A DNA stretch of 33,311 bases from Desulfobacteraceae bacterium (GCA_011390415.1 JAABSL010000077.1:1-33311), one strand, 5' to 3'; shown: positions 9,538 through 20,415, counted from the stretch's first letter. Notes: generated by a model from the sequence alone, not told the origin. Translations and numbers: made by a program.

Positions 9538-9699
9538 CAATCGCCGGGATCTTGGAAAATAGAATGATCCGGGCCGGGCGCGATAATTGGAAATGCGTTG
9601 TTTTATGTCGATTCGGGCAAGTAGCGTTTATTTTCAGCCGTCACCTTGACGCAGGCCGTACTGGAGGTTGCAGGATTTGACACGTATTTGGGCTTTCTG

Positions 9700-10515
9700 A
9701 TGAACCAGAAAATTAAAGATAACGTATCGGTAATTAAGGATTGCTTGCAGGCCGCAGGGCAGAAAGTGGTTCAAAAAGACAGAATCCTGAGGACAAGGCT
9801 CGATAACGGATTTATTGTGGATATTTTTCCCCTCAAGAGCAACCCGGAACATATTCGCGCCCGGTTGAAAATCGATGATCCGGATTCACGCAGCCGCCAG
9901 ACATATGTTGATTCAACCCATAATTCACTTTCTTTCGCACTCAACGGAACCGCAACCGTGGCCCCGTTCTCCCCGGCCAGGAAAAGCGACGGGACACATA
10001 TCTATCTGTCGGTTCTGAAATTGAAAACCGTTGACCATGATGCCCCGATTGAGATCAATGATGATGCCATTGAAATAATCGATGAAGACGCATCAGCCGA
10101 TGACCCGTCGTTAAAGCCCGAACCGGTCTGTTTTGCGGGTCCGGACGATGAAACGGCGTCCGATGACCTGGCAGCGTTTGAACTCGATTTCGGGTCCGGC
10201 CGGGAAAACAGGATAAAAGTGGTAAAGTCGCTGGCGGAAGAGGCGCTTGAAAACCTGGAAACCGTGGATTCAAAAACCTTGCGCCAGAGCCTTGACATGA
10301 TGGGGTTAAAAAGATCAAGCGCTGTCCGGCTGGCAGTCACGCGGATTTTTCGAAGTGCCCTGGAAATATCGGAACTGGAAAAAACAGTTGAGAATGAAGC
10401 AAAAAGAATTTTAACGGCAGGAGACCGGGCAGAACTCCAGGAAGTGAAATCATCGTGCGGCAATGGGTTTTTGGAACCGGTCATCAATCTGTTATGGCAG
10501 GAAGTCTTTAAATGA
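9700..10515 (+). CDS. hypothetical protein, first of a tandem paralog pair
   Basis: I do not recognise a family. The product has about 271 residues, with an N-terminal part of mixed helix and strand, an acidic low-complexity linker (about residues 125-180, rich in D and E), and a helical C-terminal domain. It aligns with the next gene over the first 50 residues and over the last 90, where both share RQSLDMM, LKRSS and DGFLEPVI/NGFLEPVI. The frame is open to a TTG at 9646, but the ATG at 9700 is chosen because it aligns exactly with the paralog's start. No signal peptide or membrane segment is visible, so it is probably cytoplasmic. The pair converges on the Hsp70-type operon, so a link to it is possible but unproven. 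Confidence 0.8.
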   Translation: MNQKIKDNVSVIKDCLQAAGQKVVQKDRILRTRLDNGFIVDIFPLKSNPEHIRARLKIDDPDSRSRQTYVDSTHNSLSFALNGTATVAPFSPARKSDGTHIYLSVLKLKTVDHDAPIEINDDAIEIIDEDASADDPSLKPEPVCFAGPDDETASDDLAAFELDFGSGRENRIKVVKSLAEEALENLETVDSKTLRQSLDMMGLKRSSAVRLAVTRIFRSALEISELEKTVENEAKRILTAGDRAELQEVKSSCGNGFLEPVINLLWQEVFK

Positions 10516-10540: not shown

Positions 10541-11299
10541 TTGAAACAGACTTTAGAAGACAAGGTTGCCCTCATTCGGGAAAATTTTCAGGCAGGGCGG
10601 GCCGAACTCATGGAAGTATCCGGATCATTCCGGATAACGTTTGAAACCGGTCAATCGGTTTACATCTATGTTGAAACCTATGATAATTCAATCACAGCCC
10701 GGTTTGAAACAAAAGAAACCGATCCCGAAAAACGGCGTCATGAGATCCGGGCCCTGCGCCGGCTTCTTGTCAGAGAAATCAGCTTTGCTGATGTCAGTGA
10801 ATTTGCGGAGGCGCCATCCGGTAAAAACCGGTTTGTCTATACCGCGGGCATCCGCATAAATGAATCGATTATTTTTCATGAGACAATCGTATTCGGATCA
10901 GATGCGGCCGGTGAAACCCAAATACCGCTGCCTGAAAAAGAAGCCGATGCCCCTGTTAATAATGCGGCGGCAGTGGCTGATGACCTGTCTGACCTGGCCC
11001 GGGCGGAAAAAGCCATTGAGCAGCTGGAAACCATTGATGCTAAAATGATTCGCCAGAGCCTGGATATGATGAACCTCAAACGATCGAGCAATGTGCGAAT
11101 CGGATTGACCCGAATTTTCAGAAATGCGGTGGATGCCGAAGAGCTGATACTTTCAATTCAGGATGAAGCCGCAAAGCTCAATTCCGACAAAGACCATAAT
11201 GATCTGCGTATTATTAAAACCATCAATACGGACGGATTCCTGGAACCGGTGATCGGGTTGCTGTACGACGCGGTTTTTGACGCTTCTTCCGCCGGCTGA
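10541..11299 (+). CDS. hypothetical protein, second of a tandem paralog pair
   Basis: This 252-residue paralog of the preceding gene starts at a TTG 25 bases after it, with only a weak AGG ribosome site. The N-terminus (MKQTLEDKVALIRENFQAG) mirrors MNQKIKDNVSVIKDCLQAAG of the first copy. The central linker is shorter and less acidic, and the C-terminal domain repeats RQSLDMMNLKRSS and DGFLEPVIGLLYDAVF. The conservation of both ends and divergence of the linker suggest two folded domains under constraint joined by a flexible tether. No catalytic motif is seen. The 3' end faces the J-like gene across about 35 bases containing an imperfect hairpin. Function unknown. Confidence 0.8.
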   Translation: MKQTLEDKVALIRENFQAGRAELMEVSGSFRITFETGQSVYIYVETYDNSITARFETKETDPEKRRHEIRALRRLLVREISFADVSEFAEAPSGKNRFVYTAGIRINESIIFHETIVFGSDAAGETQIPLPEKEADAPVNNAAAVADDLSDLARAEKAIEQLETIDAKMIRQSLDMMNLKRSSNVRIGLTRIFRNAVDAEELILSIQDEAAKLNSDKDHNDLRIIKTINTDGFLEPVIGLLYDAVFDASSAG

Positions 11300-11301
11300 A
11301 T

Positions 11302-11338
11302 CCTGAATCAGCGGGTCCGGCTAAAAAGCCGCTTCAGG
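11302..11338. terminator. imperfect hairpin between convergent genes
   Basis: CCTGA and AGCGG (11302-11314) pair with CCGCT and TCAGG (11329-11338) with a three-base bulge. There is no clear T run, so termination is only a possibility. Confidence 0.35.
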
Positions 11339-13679
11339 GCTTCCGGACCGCCCAGGCGGTTCCGCATTCCACGGCATTTCTTCTCACCGTTTCCCAATGC
11401 GTTGCATCCGGTGATGAAACCGTGGTCACCTGGATTTCCCAGCCGTCGGAATAGCCTGAATAACTGTCAGATGTCCAGTAACTCTTTTTTCCGTTAACCG
11501 GATAAGCCGGTGATGTTTTCAGTATGCCCCTCAGTTCGTCCGGCGTCGGCAGGCGCCAGTCCGTAAAACCGCCGGCGGTTAAAGAGGCAACATATTCCTG
11601 TCCCTGTTCATAAGTAAGGCAGGTGCCGGTCATTGTGGCATCGGAATCCAGCATACTCCACATGAGCCCGGTCCGTGTGTCTGATATGACGCCTGAATGC
11701 TTTTCAACAAACCGTCCGCCGGTTGCGGCCAGTTGCAGTCGCAAGGCATTGGCGGCGCGCTCGGCATTTTGAACGGATATCTTTTTGTTCAGCCGGTTGA
11801 TTTCTTTTTTTACTTTATCCGCGACGGATGATTCCGGGTAAGCTGCCAGATATTCCTGATAGATTCCCACGGCTGCCTGGTAACGGGGGGCCAGCTGATC
11901 GGCTTTTTCAACCAGATTTTTAAATATTTTTTCATCCCGGAGATTGTCCTGATATTCCGGAAGCAGCTGCTTTAGCTGATCCGAATGACTGTTATCATAG
12001 ATTTCAATATAGCTCTGGCATAACCGGATACAATCTTCCCATTTTTCCTGTTTTGCATAAACGGACAGCATTTTTCTTACATAGATGAAATATTCATTGC
12101 TGATTTCGTCGATTAACGCCTGAACCTGTTCCCTGTTTTTTCCATTGGGGTGGTTTTTGAGATATTTTTGAAAAATTTCGATTTTTTGATCGGGGTCGCC
12201 GCTCAAAGACACAGTGGTCAGTTCGGCATAATCTCTTTTTTCGATCTGGGTCGATACCTGGTTGATTTTTTGTTGGATGGCTTTCTTCTGATCGGCATCA
12301 CCGGCTTTTTCAATCTGACGATTTAAAAAAACCAGGGCATTGTCGAGATCTTTTGTTTCAATTAATTCTTCTGCCGCCTGTAAAATATTATTAAATTTTT
12401 CAGTACTTACCCGGGTCTCGATTTGGCTGATCCGGTTTTGGGCATCTGCGCTGTATTCGTTTGCATCGTGAGTGGTGATGTACTTTTTCAGCAGGCGGAT
12501 CTTTTGATCTGCTGCGGGCTGGGCATCAACTTGTTTAATGACTTGCTGATATTCGGATTTGAGGACTTTCTGGTGATGGATTCTGGAAAATCCAAAATAA
12601 CCGGCAATCACGACCAGGATGAGGACAACGGCTGCGGCGGCGACAATGGGCCGTCGAAGATTTTTTTCGGGCTTTTTTTCAATGCGGTATTTCTTTTTCT
12701 GACAAAAGGCCCGGATATAGGCGGCCGCTTCTTCCCGGTCCATGCCGAATTCGATGGCCCTGGACACCAGGGCGTCAAAATATTCATACCGGATTTTTTT
12801 ATTGATAGCGGCCACATTGATATCAGAATCCAAAGATGCCAGCTTGGCCTGGGCCAGACTGACATCATACGCAATCCGGGTTTCATTGGTTTTAAATATG
12901 GTCAGGCACTGACCCGCCAGGGTCAGGCCGGCGGTCACCACGGCATCTTTTTTACCGAGGTTGGACAGAGATTTCTTTTTTTTGCCGGCCTTTTCCTGGA
13001 GCTGGGCCAGCTCGGCATTTTCTTTCACGCCCAGGAAGTCGTAAAGGGATTTTTTAACGACAATTTTCAGGTTGTCGTTAATGCTTTTTTCAATGGATTT
13101 ATCCAGTGGCCGGATCGCCAGGTTTTCCGCTTCTTTTTCGTCTTTTATGACGGGACAGCGAATCCGTTTGCGAATTTCATCCGCATCCATCGAATGCTTT
13201 TTGGCAATCCGCGCCAATTCAGCTTCGAGAATATACCCCTTTCCCATCCGAAGGCCGATGAGCTGATCAATTCTCGAATATACGCCGTCCTGTTTGGCGG
13301 CAATCCGGTCGTTAATCTCGTTTTGCGAAAGGCCGTGGATTTCAGCCAGCCGGATGATATCTTCTTTGCCGATATATCCTTTGCCCATGAGAATATCGAT
13401 GTGGCCGTCGATTTCCGAAATTTTATTTTCACGACCTGCTTCAAGAAATTCCGCTGCCGCTGCCGCTTCTTGTTCTCTTGCACTTTCATCAAGCATGACG
13501 TTTTCGATATCCGGAATCATGTTGATAAATTTTTGAACCTGGAGGCCTTTGGTCGGATGGTTGCGGAGCCGGCTCCACTCCACTTTCTTATTCTGGATGG
13601 CTTTTTTAATTATTTCCTGATCGTTTTCCGGCGGGTCGACGGACAGATCAAGAATGATATAATAATTTTCTCTTTCCAT
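11334..13679 (-). CDS. membrane protein with two J-like domains and C-terminal DUF1566 domain
   Basis: This 781-residue protein is the third gene of the chaperone operon. Residues 5-65 look like a J domain (YYIILDLSVDP...AIQNKK) but with HPT where HPD is expected. Residues 212-275 look like a second (LYDFLGVKENAEL ... RIAYD) with no HPD at all. Between them lie two repeats of the form MGKGYI...HG/HS...EI..RI at about 98-126 and 145-173. A basic stretch precedes a single membrane helix at about 344-363, implying N-in, C-out topology. The outer part (about 370-650) is helical and TPR-like, and the end (about 655-781) is a DUF1566 domain with LMWSMLD, DWRLPTPDEL and WTSD. It may couple the cytoplasmic Hsp70 to a periplasmic binding domain. 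Domain order is read from sequence; the role is inference. Confidence 0.8.
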   Translation of the reverse strand: MERENYYIILDLSVDPPENDQEIIKKAIQNKKVEWSRLRNHPTKGLQVQKFINMIPDIENVMLDESAREQEAAAAAEFLEAGRENKISEIDGHIDILMGKGYIGKEDIIRLAEIHGLSQNEINDRIAAKQDGVYSRIDQLIGLRMGKGYILEAELARIAKKHSMDADEIRKRIRCPVIKDEKEAENLAIRPLDKSIEKSINDNLKIVVKKSLYDFLGVKENAELAQLQEKAGKKKKSLSNLGKKDAVVTAGLTLAGQCLTIFKTNETRIAYDVSLAQAKLASLDSDINVAAINKKIRYEYFDALVSRAIEFGMDREEAAAYIRAFCQKKKYRIEKKPEKNLRRPIVAAAAVVLILVVIAGYFGFSRIHHQKVLKSEYQQVIKQVDAQPAADQKIRLLKKYITTHDANEYSADAQNRISQIETRVSTEKFNNILQAAEELIETKDLDNALVFLNRQIEKAGDADQKKAIQQKINQVSTQIEKRDYAELTTVSLSGDPDQKIEIFQKYLKNHPNGKNREQVQALIDEISNEYFIYVRKMLSVYAKQEKWEDCIRLCQSYIEIYDNSHSDQLKQLLPEYQDNLRDEKIFKNLVEKADQLAPRYQAAVGIYQEYLAAYPESSVADKVKKEINRLNKKISVQNAERAANALRLQLAATGGRFVEKHSGVISDTRTGLMWSMLDSDATMTGTCLTYEQGQEYVASLTAGGFTDWRLPTPDELRGILKTSPAYPVNGKKSYWTSDSYSGYSDGWEIQVTTVSSPDATHWETVRRNAVECGTAWAVRKP

Positions 13680-13861
13680 GGATCTTGCTCAATTTATTTG
13701 GTTTTCGTGTTTGTTTGTGACAGAAAAAAAATTCCGGCAGTTTGGCATGGTACTTCCACTCGGGGGGTTTTTGCAACAAAATATCGGAGCCGGCATAAAA
13801 ACAACACAGGCGTTAAAACAGAAAACATGCCGGATAAAACTGAAAATTCGGTAAATGCTGA
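13680..13861 (-). other. 182-base gap inside the Hsp70 operon
   Basis: No gene is seen between the Hsp70-like stop and the J-like start. There is no clear terminator or strong promoter, so read-through with weak re-initiation (no good Shine-Dalgarno before 13679) is likely. Confidence 0.4.
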
Positions 13862-15541
13862 TTAATGGACAATCAGGTTCTGGGATCGGGCGATGGCCCG
13901 CTCCAGGTCTTCTCCGGCAATAACGGATGCCGTATCCACGGACACGTCAATCTGTCGCGATTCCGCTGTCTCCTGCGCTGTAATATGCAGCCGGCCTTCC
14001 TCATTCAACGTAAATGTAATTTCAATGGGCAGATCAGCCGGCAGATTCGGCGGCAGATTCAACACAGCGGTTTTGATTTCAACCGCATGTTCCGGCGGAA
14101 CTTCCACCCGGCTGGTTTCGCTTTCCATGATACGGATTAAAACGGTTTTTTGATTGCTCACTGCGGTATAAAAGTTCTTTTTCAGGGTAATCGGCACGGT
14201 GGTGTTTCTTAATACGATATTAAATACAATTTCCGTATTCTGGGGGGTGTGAGCGACCACCCCGAAGCTTTTACTGGTCACATTTTTGACTTTGAGCATG
14301 GACCGTTCAATGCTCGGAAGGGTATATCCCGTTTTGTCGGCCACATCCTGGGCGGCTTCTTTAAAATCATTGGCGGACAATTCATTGCTTTCGATCATTT
14401 GGGAAATATCATCAATCTGTGAAATCGGTTTGTTCGATTTCTGGGATAATCGTTCGATCAGGCCGTCGTTGAGGCTGAGTTTCCAGCCGTATATGGCAGC
14501 CCCTTTTGCCACTGCCTCGTCCGGATCAAATATCTTGGGGGTGACGGAAAAGTTTTCTTCAATCCGGGTTTTAATCTGGGGCATCCGGGTGGCGCCGCCC
14601 ACCAGTATAATTTCATCAAAGCTTTTATAGCCTTTATTCTTTGCTTCCTCGAGCATTTCTTTTGTAAATTCAATGGTTCTTTCCAGCAGATCTTCGGTAA
14701 TTTCTTCAAATTTTTCCCGGTCCACAATCATTTTAACGCGTTCCCCGCCATGGGTAACGGAAATAGGGGTTTTGGGGCGCTGGCTTAGAATCTTTTTCGC
14801 CTTTTCCGCTGAAAGCTGAAGATCCTGCCATGTGTCCGGATCATCAAGGATATCTTCGTCCGTTCCGGTTTCATTCTGAAAAAGTTCCACCATATGGGCC
14901 ACAATCCGGTCGTCCCAGTCCTTGCCGCCCAGGTTGTGATCCCCGCCGGTGCAGATGACTTCCACGGAATCTTTGCGGATATCGATCATGGTGATGTCAA
15001 AAGTACCGCCGCCCAGGTCATACACCAGCACCACCCGGTCATTATCTGAATCCAGGGACCCGTAGGCAACTGCTGCTGCCGTGGGTTCGTTGATAATATG
15101 CCGGACGTTAAAGCCGGCGATTTCCCCGGCCTTGCGGGTGGCTTCCCGTTCATTGATGCCGAAATAGGCGGGACAGGTGATCACCACGTCGGTGACGGGT
15201 TCGCCGAGGTACTGTTCAGCATCCTGGGCGAGTTTTTTTAAAATATACGCGGAAATTTCTTCAGCCCGGTATTCTTCGGAATTATGAAGAAAAATAAAGT
15301 TGGGCTCTCCCATGGAACGCTTGACAAAACTGACGACTTCATTGGGATACAGTTTTGAGCTTTCTTTTGCCACATCGCCGATGACAATGCTGTCATCGTC
15401 AAAAAAGACCACCGAAGGCGTGACCCGTTCATTTTCGGCATTCGGGATGATGACCGCCTTGCCGAATTCATCGACATAGGCGATGGAAGAATAAGTGGTA
15501 CCCAGGTCGATTCCGAAAATTCGCTTTGTTTTTTCCGTCAT
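13862..15541 (-). CDS. divergent Hsp70/DnaK-like chaperone lacking the lid
   Basis: The 559-residue protein has a complete ATPase domain: phosphate-1 IDLGTTYSS (11-19), DLGGGTFDI (175-183), NEPTAAAVAYG (151-161) and VGGATRMP (314-321). In place of the short acidic linker there is an extra helical stretch of about 55 residues (357-413), then a beta-sandwich substrate domain starting near LKVKNVTSKSFGVVA (416-430) and ending near 535. The helical lid of about 100 residues is absent; only some 20 residues follow. Its length is close to the HscC/short Hsp70 class rather than DnaK (about 638). The ATG overlaps the GrpE-like stop as TAATG, so translation is coupled. It is probably a dedicated chaperone working with its neighbours rather than housekeeping DnaK. 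Confidence 0.9.
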   Translation of the reverse strand: MTEKTKRIFGIDLGTTYSSIAYVDEFGKAVIIPNAENERVTPSVVFFDDDSIVIGDVAKESSKLYPNEVVSFVKRSMGEPNFIFLHNSEEYRAEEISAYILKKLAQDAEQYLGEPVTDVVITCPAYFGINEREATRKAGEIAGFNVRHIINEPTAAAVAYGSLDSDNDRVVLVYDLGGGTFDITMIDIRKDSVEVICTGGDHNLGGKDWDDRIVAHMVELFQNETGTDEDILDDPDTWQDLQLSAEKAKKILSQRPKTPISVTHGGERVKMIVDREKFEEITEDLLERTIEFTKEMLEEAKNKGYKSFDEIILVGGATRMPQIKTRIEENFSVTPKIFDPDEAVAKGAAIYGWKLSLNDGLIERLSQKSNKPISQIDDISQMIESNELSANDFKEAAQDVADKTGYTLPSIERSMLKVKNVTSKSFGVVAHTPQNTEIVFNIVLRNTTVPITLKKNFYTAVSNQKTVLIRIMESETSRVEVPPEHAVEIKTAVLNLPPNLPADLPIEITFTLNEEGRLHITAQETAESRQIDVSVDTASVIAGEDLERAIARSQNLIVH

Positions 15542-16419
15542 TAGTCGTTGTTATCCTCCGCAGTTGCTTTCGCCTGGTAGACATAGGCGGAAACCATTTC
15601 AGGACGGATTATTTTGCCGTCCCACTCGTAACCGGGCCGCAGTCGCTCCGCAACGGTTTTGTCCTTTTCCGGATCATCCGTTTCGATTTTTTTCAGTATC
15701 CGCTGGCGGGAAGGGTCAAATACATCTCCGTCGCATGTAAACGGTGTAACTCCTTCCCAGGCAAAAAGGTCTTCAAGGTCGGAAGCGATATTTTCAATGT
15801 ATTTATACAGTTTTTCCGTCGTATCGTCCGATTGTTTTTCCGAACCGGACTGGTTTTTATAATGTGCGCTGAATTTTCGCATATCATCAACAATTTTGAT
15901 TATATCAGTGACAATGCGATGTAAATATTTTTTAACCAGGCCTTCCCGATATTCCTGAAGGGACTGGTGCAGGTCATCAATGATTTTGTTCTTGTGCGCG
16001 TCATATTTTAATTTGCTTTCAAACGTCCGGGAAAGATCCTTGAGCTGCTCATTGATTTCATCCAAAGCGGAAGGGTCCGGTATTTGTATTTCATCCGGAA
16101 TATCATTTTCAACGAATTTCCCGACCGGACTTTGTGCTTCCTGTTGTTCGCCACTCTCTTTGAAAAAAGATTCCCCTTGGGGCTCTTCAGTCTCAGGTCC
16201 GGCAGCTGTTTCTTCGTCAGTTTTCGTGCTCATCAGATTGTCCGGCGAATCTTCATTCTGGTCATCCTGATCCGCCTGGTCATCCGGCGCACTTTCTGCG
16301 GATTCAGAAGTTGATGGAGAATTTAAAGCCTCGTCAATCGGAATACCTATTTCAAAATTATCTTCAAAATCTTCCTCATAAATCGAGTCGTCATCATAGC
16401 TTTTGTTTTCTTCATCCAT
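15541..16419 (-). CDS. GrpE-like nucleotide exchange factor with acidic N-terminal extension
   Basis: This protein of about 292 residues is the first gene of the chaperone operon. Residues 1-110 are very acidic and probably disordered; residues about 118-190 form the long helix or coiled coil typical of GrpE; residues about 223-280 form the beta domain, with FDPSRQRI, TVAERLRPGYEWDGK and IIRPEMV close to the GrpE pattern (TVAEVLQKGY...RPAMV). Canonical GrpE is about 200 residues, so the extension is unusual. The ATG at 16419 is preferred to a TTG two codons upstream because AGG sits 7 bases before it. It should release ADP from the Hsp70-like protein encoded next. The assignment rests on the C-terminal pattern and the neighbour. 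Confidence 0.8.
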   Translation of the reverse strand: MDEENKSYDDDSIYEEDFEDNFEIGIPIDEALNSPSTSESAESAPDDQADQDDQNEDSPDNLMSTKTDEETAAGPETEEPQGESFFKESGEQQEAQSPVGKFVENDIPDEIQIPDPSALDEINEQLKDLSRTFESKLKYDAHKNKIIDDLHQSLQEYREGLVKKYLHRIVTDIIKIVDDMRKFSAHYKNQSGSEKQSDDTTEKLYKYIENIASDLEDLFAWEGVTPFTCDGDVFDPSRQRILKKIETDDPEKDKTVAERLRPGYEWDGKIIRPEMVSAYVYQAKATAEDNND

Positions 16420-16494
16420 GGTCAACCTGCTTATTTTAAATTGTGTGAAACGAATCCGCTGTATTGGACTTTGAATTCTTAATGAATCCTATGT

Positions 16495-16523
16495 ATTAAA
16501 TGGAAACACCATCTTTTTGTCAA
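16495..16523 (-). promoter_or_regulatory. promoter of the GrpE/Hsp70/J-like operon
   Basis: TTGACA (16523-16518) and TTTAAT (16500-16495) are separated by 17 bases, matching sigma-70 at 6 and 5 of 6 positions. It begins about 75 bases upstream of the GrpE-like start. I see no CIRCE or sigma-32 type element. Confidence 0.6.
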
Positions 16524-16617: not shown

Positions 16618-16645
16618 TTGACAGAAAAAATTATGCCGATATAAT
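16618..16645 (+). promoter_or_regulatory. consensus sigma-70 promoter of the QueG-like/TetR operon
   Basis: A perfect TTGACA (16618-16623) and a perfect TATAAT (16640-16645) are separated by 16 bases. Transcription would begin near 16652, inside the palindrome listed next. Confidence 0.8.
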
Positions 16646-16714: not shown

Positions 16715-17836
16715 ATGATTTCAAAAGAAGAAATTATTCAAAAATCAAAAGAATGCGGGTTTGAGGATGTGGGGTTTACCACGGCCGAACCCTTTGAAAC
16801 GCATCGGGAATTTTTAGCAGGCCGGCAGGCGGAATACGGCTGGGCCGAAACCGTGGGGCTGGAATTAATGAAAGGCACGGATCCGAAAGCCATCATGAAG
16901 GATGCGGAAACGGTGATTGTGCTCATGGAAGTCTATTTCCGCAAGGCTTATCCCCGGCACATGGAGGGCCATTTCGGCCGCTGTTACCTGGATGACGACC
17001 GGGTGACCAAAGACGGCCTGTCCCAGCGCATCAAGGCATTCAGAGGATTTTTGCGGGATAACGGCATTGATTCTAAAGTGCCGTTTAATCTGCCCCACCG
17101 GGTGGCCGCGGCCCGCGCCGGCATGGGCACATTCGGCAAAAACTGCCTGTTCTATTCCAATAACGTGGCCCGGCAGAGTTCCTGGGTCCTGCCCATCGCC
17201 GTGGTGATCAATCAAAAACTGGCGCCCGGCGACCCCACTCTGGAAATGGGATGCCCGGACTGGTGCCGGAACGCCTGTATTGCCGCCTGTCCCACCCGGG
17301 CCCTGAAAGGCAACGGCACCATTGATCCCCGAAAATGTATTTCCTATCTGACCTATTTCGGCGACGGCCTGACCCCGAAGGAACTGCGGGAACCCATGGG
17401 AATTTATGTTTACGGCTGCGACCGGTGCCAGAATGTCTGCCCGCGAAATGCCGCCTGGCTGGCCGCCGATCTGCCGGTCAACGAAAAAGTGGCTGCCAAG
17501 GCCGGTGCCTTTGACCTGTCCGCGCTGCTGCGCATGGACAAACCGTATTTTGAATCCCAAATCTGGCCCCACATGTTTTACATGTCCGCCGATGACCTGT
17601 GGCGATGGAAAATGAATGTTTCCCGGGCCATGGGCAACACCCGTGATCCCATGTATACGGATGACCTGATTTGCGAATTTGAGGAAAATGAAGACCAACG
17701 GGTGCAGGCCATGTGCGCGTGGGCGTTGGGCAGAATCGGCGGAGAAAAAGCAAAAACCGCCCTGGACCGTTTTCTGCGAAAAAGTGCCGGATTGATCCGG
17801 GAAGAAGTAACGGATGCGCTGGCACAATGCCGGTAG
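16715..17836 (+). CDS. QueG-like 4Fe-4S protein with HEAT-repeat C-terminus
   Basis: The 373-residue protein resembles epoxyqueuosine reductase QueG, a cobalamin and double 4Fe-4S enzyme of queuosine synthesis. The central part has RAGMGTFGKN (134-143), then cysteines 180, 184, 188 and 192 (ending ACPT), Cys208, and CDRCQNVCP (235-243). A HEAT-like repeat at about 320-370 (AMCAWALGRIGGEKAKTAL) matches the QueG C-terminal region. Two points speak against it being the housekeeping enzyme: the first cluster has Cys spacing 3-3-3 instead of the usual 2-2-3, and it sits behind a repressible promoter with a TetR gene. GAGGAAA precedes the ATG. The TetR gene follows at its 3' end. It may be a paralog with another reduction role. 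Confidence 0.75.
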   Translation: MISKEEIIQKSKECGFEDVGFTTAEPFETHREFLAGRQAEYGWAETVGLELMKGTDPKAIMKDAETVIVLMEVYFRKAYPRHMEGHFGRCYLDDDRVTKDGLSQRIKAFRGFLRDNGIDSKVPFNLPHRVAAARAGMGTFGKNCLFYSNNVARQSSWVLPIAVVINQKLAPGDPTLEMGCPDWCRNACIAACPTRALKGNGTIDPRKCISYLTYFGDGLTPKELREPMGIYVYGCDRCQNVCPRNAAWLAADLPVNEKVAAKAGAFDLSALLRMDKPYFESQIWPHMFYMSADDLWRWKMNVSRAMGNTRDPMYTDDLICEFEENEDQRVQAMCAWALGRIGGEKAKTALDRFLRKSAGLIREEVTDALAQCR

Positions 17837-17847
17837 CACATGATAAA

Positions 17848-18519
17848 ATGAAAAAAAGATTAAACGCAGACATTCAGAAACCGAAAATCGTAAAGCAATT
17901 TTACAAAACCATTCTTGCGCAAGGGTTTGAAGGCGCCTCTGTTGCCAAAGTGGCAAAGCAAATGCAAATTCATCCCAGTCTGATCCTTCATTATTTCGGA
18001 AATAAGGAAAACCTGACCCTTGCGTTGGTCGATTATGTCATTGATGCGTACGGCAGTCTGCTAAAGAAATTCAAATCACAGGATCTTACGCCGGAAGATC
18101 GGCTGGAAAGGCTTCTGGAAGCGCTCTGGAGCCGGGAATATTATGAAAAAATTGATGTTGCCGGTTCTTTTGCCGTGCTGGCGGTGAGCTTTCGCAATGA
18201 AAAAATCCATCACAAAATCAGGGAACTGTATCGGGGATTGAAAAAATTTCTGGTCCGGGAATTTACGTATTTGATGGATCATCAGGTAGTTGCGGCAAAA
18301 GATCCTGCGCATATGGCCGAAGTGGTCATGACCATGACCGAAGGCTCCCGGCATTTTCGGCGGTTTATCATAGAAGAAGAGAGCGGGGATAACGGGCAAA
18401 TCCGGCGATACAACCAGCAGATGATGGAAGCGGCCTGGCATTATTTAACGGGAAAGCAAAAAACCTGGCCCACAGACCCGGGTTTTTCAGCCTTTCCCGG
18501 AACCCCCTTTGTTCGTTAA
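17848..18519 (+). CDS. TetR-family transcriptional regulator
   Basis: This regulator of about 223 residues has a TetR helix-turn-helix at the N-terminus (GFEGASVAKVAKQMQIHPSL then ILHYFGNKENL), followed by a helical ligand-binding domain. The frame is open far upstream inside the QueG-like gene, but homology begins near the ATG at 17848; an ATG at 17827 overlapping the QueG-like stop is the alternative. It lies in the same operon as that gene, and the promoter carries a TetR-like palindrome, so autorepression is the simplest model. Its ligand is unknown. Its 3' end overlaps the end of the convergent M48 gene by 33 bases. Confidence 0.85.
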   Translation: MKKRLNADIQKPKIVKQFYKTILAQGFEGASVAKVAKQMQIHPSLILHYFGNKENLTLALVDYVIDAYGSLLKKFKSQDLTPEDRLERLLEALWSREYYEKIDVAGSFAVLAVSFRNEKIHHKIRELYRGLKKFLVREFTYLMDHQVVAAKDPAHMAEVVMTMTEGSRHFRRFIIEEESGDNGQIRRYNQQMMEAAWHYLTGKQKTWPTDPGFSAFPGTPFVR

Positions 18520-20415
18520 GACCGGGGGTACCGGAAGATTGAGGGCATAGGCAATGGCGCGCAGCAATTCCGCTTCCTTGGTGGTCACGGTCTGGTCAAA
18601 CAACACACAGTAAGCGCAGGCGTCCAGTATGGTTTTTTTGACAGCCGGAGACGATGCCGCAAAGTTTGAAATGGCGCTGCCCACCACAGGGAACGGTTTG
18701 TTCACCATTTGCGGATGTCTGCCAGCATCGCCTGATGTTTTCGAAGCCGCCGGAATCATTTTTATTGCAAACATAAAGGCTTTTTCAGCATCTGCCGGGT
18801 TATCATGCCCTTCAATGGCGAGCTTGGAGAGCAATATAGTTGCTTCTTCCATCAGCGGTTCAATGCTTTTAAATTTTTGTTTTGCCGTTGCCGGATGGGA
18901 CGCGGTCTCCAGGCGGCTGGTGATGATAAGCTGCAGCGTATATTCAAACAGACTGAGCCGGCCGTCGGATTCCGCCAGAATGGCAACTGCCTGCTGAAAT
19001 GATCGTAACTGCTCAGCCGACATCCGTCGCAGCATGGGAACCGCCAGATCCAGAAGCGGCAGTTTCATTTCACGATCAAGGGTCTGAACGGTTTTGTCCA
19101 GAATTGAGACATGCCGGACGAGCGTGTCCGGCATGACCTGTCTCAGTCCTTCAAGCTGGCGCCTTTTTTCATGGGCGTCTGCGTCAAGGAGCATGGCAAA
19201 TACGACAGCGGATGCGCCCATGGGGTCATTCAGCTCTTTTCGAATGTCGACCGGAATTGATTCCATAATTTTTACGCTGTGCGCCACATGTTCGGCATCC
19301 AGTGAACCGGTACTGTTTATAACATTTTCCGGGTCAATCTCAAATCTGCTGCCGGACCCCGCAAATCCCATGGCCGCGGTTTCTTTTCGGGAAACCGGCG
19401 GGACTTTTTCGCGAATTGCGGCAAAGTCGCCGTTAAATGACGGATCAATTTTTTGGATACGCTGTTTGATGGGCGGGTGAGTGGCAAAAAGCGAACGGAT
19501 GGCCGGGCCAAAAAACATATGACTGGTTTCCGATGCCAGGGGAGCCGATATCTTCGAGCCCTTTGAAAAGCCGCCGATCTTTTTTAATGCATTGGCAATC
19601 CCCGGCGGATTGCGGGTAAACTGAACGGCCGAAGCGTCGGCCAGATATTCCCGCTGGCGGGACACCGCGCTTTGGATAATGCGCGAGACGAAAACACCGA
19701 TGTAACCGATGGCAATAAAGGACAATCCGAGAGCCAGTGCCGGCATGCCGTTTTTCCGGCTCCGGGAACCGGATCGCAGAACCATGCTTCCGATGGACGC
19801 AATGATCAGAATACCGCTGATCATGCCGATCAGCCGGATGTTCAGCCGCATGTCTCCGTTTAAAATATGGCTGAACTCATGGGCCACCACCCCTTGCAGC
19901 TCATCTCTTGTCAATTGCCGGAGGCACCCGTCGGTGACCGCCACCACCGCGTCATCCGGGCTGTATCCGGCGGCAAAGGCATTAATTCCTTTTTCCCCGT
20001 CAAGCACATAGGCCATGGGAACCGGGATGCCGGCGGCGATTGCCATTTCTTCCACTACATTGATGAATTTTTTTTCATCCGGATCACGGGTGGCGGAATT
20101 GACCGGCCGGCCGCCCAGGCTTTCGGCAATATAGGACCCGCCGCGCCGTAACGCCATAATTTTAAACAGACTGCCGCCGATAATAATCAGCAAAACGGCC
20201 CCCATCACACCCAAAAAGATATCCGGATCAAACCAGGTGAAGGCACTTTCTCCGATTGGAGCATCGGGTGGCAGCGGCTGGGACTGGGAAAAGAAAATCC
20301 CGATGATGACCAGATACACGGCCAAAACAATACCGATCACCGCCAGCCCGAAGAGTGCCACCAGCAGCGCGGTTTTTTGTTTGGATTGATCCTGATGTTC
20401 AAAAAAATTTTTCAA
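18487..20415 (-). CDS. M48 family (HtpX-like) membrane metalloprotease with long C-terminal domain
   Basis: This is a 642-residue zinc protease. Two membrane helices (about 15-42 and 65-88) precede the active site HEFSH (179-183), followed by another hydrophobic pair (about 195-212 and 228-248) and the third-ligand region REYLADASAV (256-265). This core resembles HtpX (about 290 residues), the membrane quality-control protease. An extra helical region of some 330 residues follows; the segment FQQAVAILAESDGRLSLFEYTL resembles a TerB-like fold. The start is a TTG without a clear ribosome site, lying within a repeated sequence, so it is uncertain. It follows lemA by 24 bases; the M48-LemA pair is widespread and probably acts together at the membrane. 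Confidence 0.9.
   Translation of the reverse strand: MKNFFEHQDQSKQKTALLVALFGLAVIGIVLAVYLVIIGIFFSQSQPLPPDAPIGESAFTWFDPDIFLGVMGAVLLIIIGGSLFKIMALRRGGSYIAESLGGRPVNSATRDPDEKKFINVVEEMAIAAGIPVPMAYVLDGEKGINAFAAGYSPDDAVVAVTDGCLRQLTRDELQGVVAHEFSHILNGDMRLNIRLIGMISGILIIASIGSMVLRSGSRSRKNGMPALALGLSFIAIGYIGVFVSRIIQSAVSRQREYLADASAVQFTRNPPGIANALKKIGGFSKGSKISAPLASETSHMFFGPAIRSLFATHPPIKQRIQKIDPSFNGDFAAIREKVPPVSRKETAAMGFAGSGSRFEIDPENVINSTGSLDAEHVAHSVKIMESIPVDIRKELNDPMGASAVVFAMLLDADAHEKRRQLEGLRQVMPDTLVRHVSILDKTVQTLDREMKLPLLDLAVPMLRRMSAEQLRSFQQAVAILAESDGRLSLFEYTLQLIITSRLETASHPATAKQKFKSIEPLMEEATILLSKLAIEGHDNPADAEKAFMFAIKMIPAASKTSGDAGRHPQMVNKPFPVVGSAISNFAASSPAVKKTILDACAYCVLFDQTVTTKEAELLRAIAYALNLPVPPVLTNKGGSGKG

Follow-up and report, generated by a model that had tools for sequence, protein, structure and literature searches.

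Organization of the operon and its genomic setting

ORF calling and Pfam searches in the window, i.e. the whole stretch of 33,311 nucleotides that was analysed, identified three minus-strand genes. They encode, in this order, a GrpE-like nucleotide exchange factor (15541..16419), a lid-less Hsp70 of 559 amino acids with an insert of about 60 residues between the NBD and the linker (13862..15541), and a 781-residue membrane protein (11334..13679) which combines two J-like modules, one transmembrane (TM) helix, a helical TPR-like outer region and an Lcl_C/DUF1566 domain. An earlier note on this DNA had described these co-oriented genes, and the ORFs together with the Pfam matches (GrpE, Hsp70 and Lcl_C) confirm that they are real. 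It had also proposed coupling through the motif TAATG and one promoter ahead of the operon. Coupling applies to the first two genes, the stop of the GrpE-like gene overlapping the Hsp70 start in TAATG, but not to the J-like gene, which starts 182 nt past the Hsp70 stop. No minus-strand terminator-like site was found in this 182-nt gap. As to the promoter, a consensus scan of the minus strand upstream of the GrpE-like gene revealed no candidate with at least 9 of 12 matches. The perfect sigma-70 consensus of this region (TTGACA-16-TATAAT, 16618-16645) is on the plus strand, upstream of a divergent gene at 16715.

The GrpE-like protein may start at ATG 16419 (292 amino acids) or at TTG 16425 (294 amino acids). 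Residues 120 to 279 of the 294-residue ORF matched Pfam GrpE (8.5e-17; 61.8 bits for a cut-off of 25.8), and the NCBIfam GrpE equivalog cut-offs were missed (best 37.6 of 194 bits). The acidic stretch, which had been reported as a tail of 110 residues, is actually an N-terminal extension of about 118 residues preceding the GrpE domain, with 39 D/E versus 4 K/R in 118 amino acids. The Hsp70 passed the Pfam cut-off (PF00012, 5e-112 over profile positions 1-372, 375 bits) and remained below those of the housekeeping DnaK models PRK00290 and TIGR02350 (380 of 648 and 366 of 823 bits, respectively). Alignment with DnaK indicated that it stops shortly past SBD-beta and has no lid, as previously claimed. 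Its identity was 39% with an Hsp70-VWA paralogue, 36% with DnaK and 31% with HscC, HscC thus not being the best match.

A full-length housekeeping dnaK with its own grpE is carried by another contig (C276) of the same genome. The existence of a dedicated Hsp70 set apart from the housekeeping locus, as the earlier note had it, is therefore well supported. Six proteins above the DnaJ cut-off are encoded elsewhere in this genome. Two adjoining, very divergent Hsp70-like proteins (L003 and L004) were also noticed on its contig C199, and similar adjacent pairs occur in many relatives. In the window itself, an M48 metalloprotease of the HtpX type, whose long C-terminal extension matched TerB marginally, is encoded at 18487-20415 (minus strand), and an Rfam search found a tRNA alone. 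A link with defence systems was considered and dropped, the PADLOC matches being marginal and limited to the Hsp70 and GrpE proteins. Our literature search, thin on subscription journals, found no account of this operon.

The N-terminal half of the 781-residue protein was detected in 40 of 60 relatives and in 71 contigs, nearly all from Desulfobacterales, one carrier being the isolate Desulfatibacillum alkenivorans DSM 16219; two Thiotrichaceae-type bins and a single Oscillospiraceae bin were also positive. An Hsp70 gene lies directly upstream on the same strand in 65 of the 69 J-like loci with room upstream, and is itself preceded by a GrpE-like gene in 58 of the 61 loci with more upstream room. 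The gene-neighbourhood search called for by the earlier note thus showed the three genes together and in one orientation in nearly every one of some 70 contigs, almost all of them from Desulfobacterales. When the J and Hsp70 search tables of 40 genomes were read side by side by hand, the J-like gene and the lid-less Hsp70 were both present in 28, both absent from 11, and the Hsp70 occurred without its partner in one fragmented assembly. This linkage is strong but does not amount to 28 independent events, because the genomes are related. In a phylum-wide sample, 6 of 297 genomes were positive, all from one order.

A possible accessory gene, orfB (10541..11299, plus strand), is located tail-to-tail with the J-like gene, next to its paralogue orfA (9646..10515, plus strand). 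No Pfam family matched either product. A relative of these genes occupies the same position in 26 of the 61 loci that extend 1.5 kb or more downstream, and some genomes carry extra copies elsewhere. Among the 60 relatives, orfA/orfB were found only within the window's own family, where nearly every genome carries the operon; given this phylogenetic overlap, a functional link can be no more than suggested. The C-terminal domain of the two proteins is helical and conserved, with D166, R171, D175, R181, R186, R194 and E209 (orfB numbering) being invariant. The N-domain of orfB resembles type III secretion chaperones weakly (Foldseek E 0.02; VIA Z 4.7 to 5.7), and we assign it to no known fold.

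J-like modules and outer domain of the membrane protein

The earlier note had placed J-like modules in the cytoplasmic half of the 781-residue protein. In an AF2 model of residues 1-340, which has a mean pLDDT of 87, two four-helix modules resemble J domains, namely J1 (residues 1-77; 13449..13679, minus strand) and J2 (residues 198-285 approximately; 12825..13088, minus strand). Foldseek and VIA returned J domains for residues 2-77 and about 198-279, with Z of about 7 to 8.5 over 62-75 residues. The corresponding Foldseek E-values were weak (about 1), probably due to each domain being a small part of the query. The fold check therefore came out in favour of the modules, whose J folds are predictions. 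Family searches gave no such recognition: Pfam DnaJ matched neither the 781-residue protein at E 1 nor any of 17 J1 members at E 10, and no DnaJ match to the full protein was obtained in NCBIfam. The label "J-like" consequently rests on fold prediction. Pairwise profile alignments against six DnaJ domains were weak as well (E 6e-4 for J1 and 2e-3 for J2), two control regions of the same protein scoring weaker still (0.013 and 0.08).

J1 carries HPT in place of the canonical HPD (residues 41-43; 13551..13559, minus strand) in the loop between helices II and III, and J2 has no HPD. Across all J1 sequences, in a count which includes repeated contigs, the tripeptide was HPT in 99, HPS in 6, HPI in 1, HPQ in 1 and HPD in none, and the surrounding stretch W-S-R-x-R-N-H-P-[T/S]-K was nearly invariant.

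The single TM helix spans residues 345-363 approximately (12591..12647, minus strand; hydropathy peak 2.73), with a net charge of +7 before and +1 after it, which puts the positive side in the cytoplasm as had been proposed. Relatives support this anchor topology: the helix was present in 64 of 67 non-redundant full-length proteins, 63 of the 67 combined it with Lcl_C, and the upstream flank was the more positive in 56 of the 64. The idea of an Hsp70 cycle attached to a membrane sensor stands as far as the anchor is concerned; sensing is not supported and stays conjectural. The C-terminal DUF1566 domain of the earlier description was recovered as Lcl_C (PF07603) at residues 663-751 (11427..11693, minus strand; 1.4e-13, 51.6 bits for a cut-off of 34.9). 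Two cysteines of this region, C687 and C772, the latter just beyond the Pfam match, co-vary: both were found in 61 relatives, neither in two and one in a single protein. Such a pattern would be expected if they formed a disulfide outside the membrane. In Legionella, the C-terminal domain of Lcl trimerises and is able to bind sulphated glycans (PMC11162425), and by analogy the Lcl_C domain of the operon protein could possibly bind a ligand or oligomerise.

Paired replacements in the Hsp70 and in the J1 motif

We compared 68-69 non-redundant operon Hsp70s with 30 DnaKs, residues being numbered as in E. coli. The catalytic residues G10, K70, P143, R151, E171, D194, T199 and D201 were all kept in the operon proteins, and so were the peptide-pocket residues F426, V436 and I438. 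In contrast with the 30 DnaKs, which all have R167 and Q378, R167 was replaced in 68/68 operon Hsp70s (Q in 55, H in 13) and Q378 became Y or F in 69/69. The window Hsp70 and its nearest relatives have H at the first site (H148 codon, 15098..15100, minus strand); at the second, the window protein has Y351 (codon 14489..14491, minus strand). P419 was retained in 69/69. N147 was changed to G and D148 to I, each in 68/68, and the VLLLD linker was replaced by a charged one, mostly [LVIM][KR][VI][KR][ND]. Together with the missing lid, these last changes suggest that normal allostery may be gone. A six-residue deletion affects the loop containing the GrpE-signature region, and of the two salt bridges of the cleft, R56-E264 has been lost. 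The NBD residue D208 was left out of the tally, its alignment being unreliable, and an apparent change at F457 was dropped since two alignments disagree at that site. The HPT motif and the matching Hsp70 changes were absent from the earlier note.

The crystal structure of DnaK with DnaJ shows that D35 of HPD touches R167 and Q378 of DnaK, P34 touches P419 and H33 touches the backbone of the linker residue L391 (PMC8215388). J1 has thus lost only the residue whose two side-chain contacts are gone from the Hsp70, and has kept the H and the P, the contacts of which can persist. DnaK R167H suppresses DnaJ D35N (PMC5519331, PMC7289447); a pair without the salt bridge can therefore work, and HPT with the R167/Q378 replacements looks like a natural compensated pair. 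On the other hand, D35N abolished stimulation in all systems tested (PMC8215388), so that HPT may be inactive, and a classical J-stimulated cycle cannot be assumed with the HPD Asp and both of its DnaK contacts replaced. A single ancestral event may account for all the substitutions, which hence should not be counted as many independent tests.

Several controls argue, from sequence comparison, that these changes are specific to this pair and not a property of short or membrane-linked Hsp70s in general. The window genome's own DnaK is among the 30 that keep R167 and Q378. R167 (2/2 readable) and Q378 are likewise present in an Hsp70-VWA paralogue, whose gene lies beside that of a relative of the J-like protein with a zinc ribbon. 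E. coli HscC also keeps both residues, and its partner DjlC has an acidic HPE. Two Thiotrichaceae-type genomes with HPT possess a Q-type Hsp70 alongside R-type Hsp70s, and the Oscillospiraceae relative, whose tripeptide is NPR, comes from a genome having only an R-type DnaK-like Hsp70, where no dedicated Hsp70 was found. The protein of this last genome (L128:7793-10750) combines the two J-like modules with zinc ribbons and with FnIII-like repeats. A variant operon was also seen at two loci (L044 and L061; G041 contig C499), with a Q-type Hsp70 in tandem with an R-type one whose C-terminal region is VWA-like, and a J-like protein in which a zinc-ribbon and FnIII-like C-terminus replaces the TM helix and Lcl_C; a Thiotrichaceae locus (L064) is similar.

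A candidate membrane-held Hsp70 machine and its relation to known systems

The conservation of the operon, the substitutions on both partners and the TM plus Lcl_C architecture are best explained, in our opinion, by a privately wired Hsp70 machine of uncultured sulfate-reducing bacteria, which a J-like, Lcl_C-bearing anchor would recruit to the inner membrane; we regard the chances of this proposal as evenly balanced. The cytoplasmic J1 would dock on the operon Hsp70 at the usual J site, with the H and P contacts kept and the Asp contact replaced (HPT for HPD, facing Q/H at R167 and Y/F at Q378), and this docking would set the timing of ATP hydrolysis, nucleotide being exchanged by the operon GrpE-like protein. 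J2 might be a non-catalytic J fold positioning J1, as Pam16 does for Pam18, and the outer Lcl_C half would bring the Hsp70 cycle to the cell envelope, next to clients or a ligand there. What we infer here comprises the docking of J1, stimulation of the ATPase, insulation from DnaK/DnaJ and a role at the envelope. More tentatively, and with somewhat less than even expectation, we suggest a naturally insulated Hsp70-J pair whose Asp side has been rewritten on both proteins (T/S versus Q/H plus Y/F), the outer Lcl_C domain placing or gating a private cycle across the inner membrane.

Loss of the HPD Asp from all J1 sequences and lack of HPD in J2 would also fit a tether or brake, in which both modules bind the Hsp70 but leave it unstimulated, in the manner of Pam16-like J folds devoid of HPD. 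Stimulation would then come from clients or from one of the six canonical J proteins that score above the DnaJ cut-off and are encoded at other sites of the genome, and the inactivity of D35N in the systems tested (PMC8215388) is in agreement with it. We consider this rather unlikely, as canonical HPD proteins should fit badly to an Hsp70 that has lost R167 and Q378, and as the H and P of the motif are under strong constraint. The Hsp70 might instead be an ATP-driven signalling switch, toggling the membrane complex when a ligand binds Lcl_C and folding no client. The absent lid, charged linker, 60-residue insert and D148 to I change would suit such a device, as would the glycan binding and trimerisation of Legionella Lcl_C (PMC11162425), but conservation of the core peptide pocket (F426, V436, I438) and a dedicated GrpE-like exchange factor, which points to a cycling Hsp70, make it improbable. 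The present data cannot separate the privately wired machine from either of these two readings. We give very little credence to the idea that the Hsp70 is a common DnaK paralogue paired with a J protein of the membrane, as HscC is with DjlB/DjlC, and that the substitutions are meaningless drift: HscC is also short and DjlB/DjlC are tail-anchored (PMC8215388), but HscC keeps R167/Q378, DjlC has HPE, the hscC locus has no GrpE gene, and the replacements are fixed in nearly 70 otherwise variable Hsp70s.

The HPD Asp and the DnaK Arg are regarded as the universal Hsp70 trigger, and a conserved natural pair devoid of both makes it possible to ask if the salt bridge is required. Such a pair also offers a ready-made private Hsp70-J set. 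If the proposal of a privately wired machine is true, this would be an unusual case in bacteria of an Hsp70 that has both a GrpE-like factor and a membrane-spanning J partner to itself.

With E. coli DnaK-DnaJ-GrpE, the operon shares the Hsp70 fold and all catalytic residues tested, a GrpE domain and a predicted J fold with its H and P; it differs by HPT, by the replaced R167 and Q378, by the changes in linker, lid and GrpE-signature loop, and by having a membrane protein as J partner. HscC-DjlB/DjlC of E. coli similarly associates a short Hsp70 with membrane-anchored J proteins, but HscC retains R167/Q378, DjlC has HPE, the locus lacks a GrpE gene and HscC is 31% identical to the window Hsp70. 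In mitochondria, Pam18/Pam16 act on Hsp70 in a membrane-held motor where an HPD-less J fold sits beside another J fold. The operon resembles them in this juxtaposition, but its J folds share one chain, neither has HPD, and no translocase subunit was seen. Finally, MxDnaK2 of Myxococcus xanthus, which has an upstream GrpE and is biased to membrane proteins, likewise represents a second grpE-dnaK pair (PMC11019930); in contrast to the operon Hsp70, it is a canonical DnaK, with 62% identity to E. coli DnaK and SBD-alpha present.
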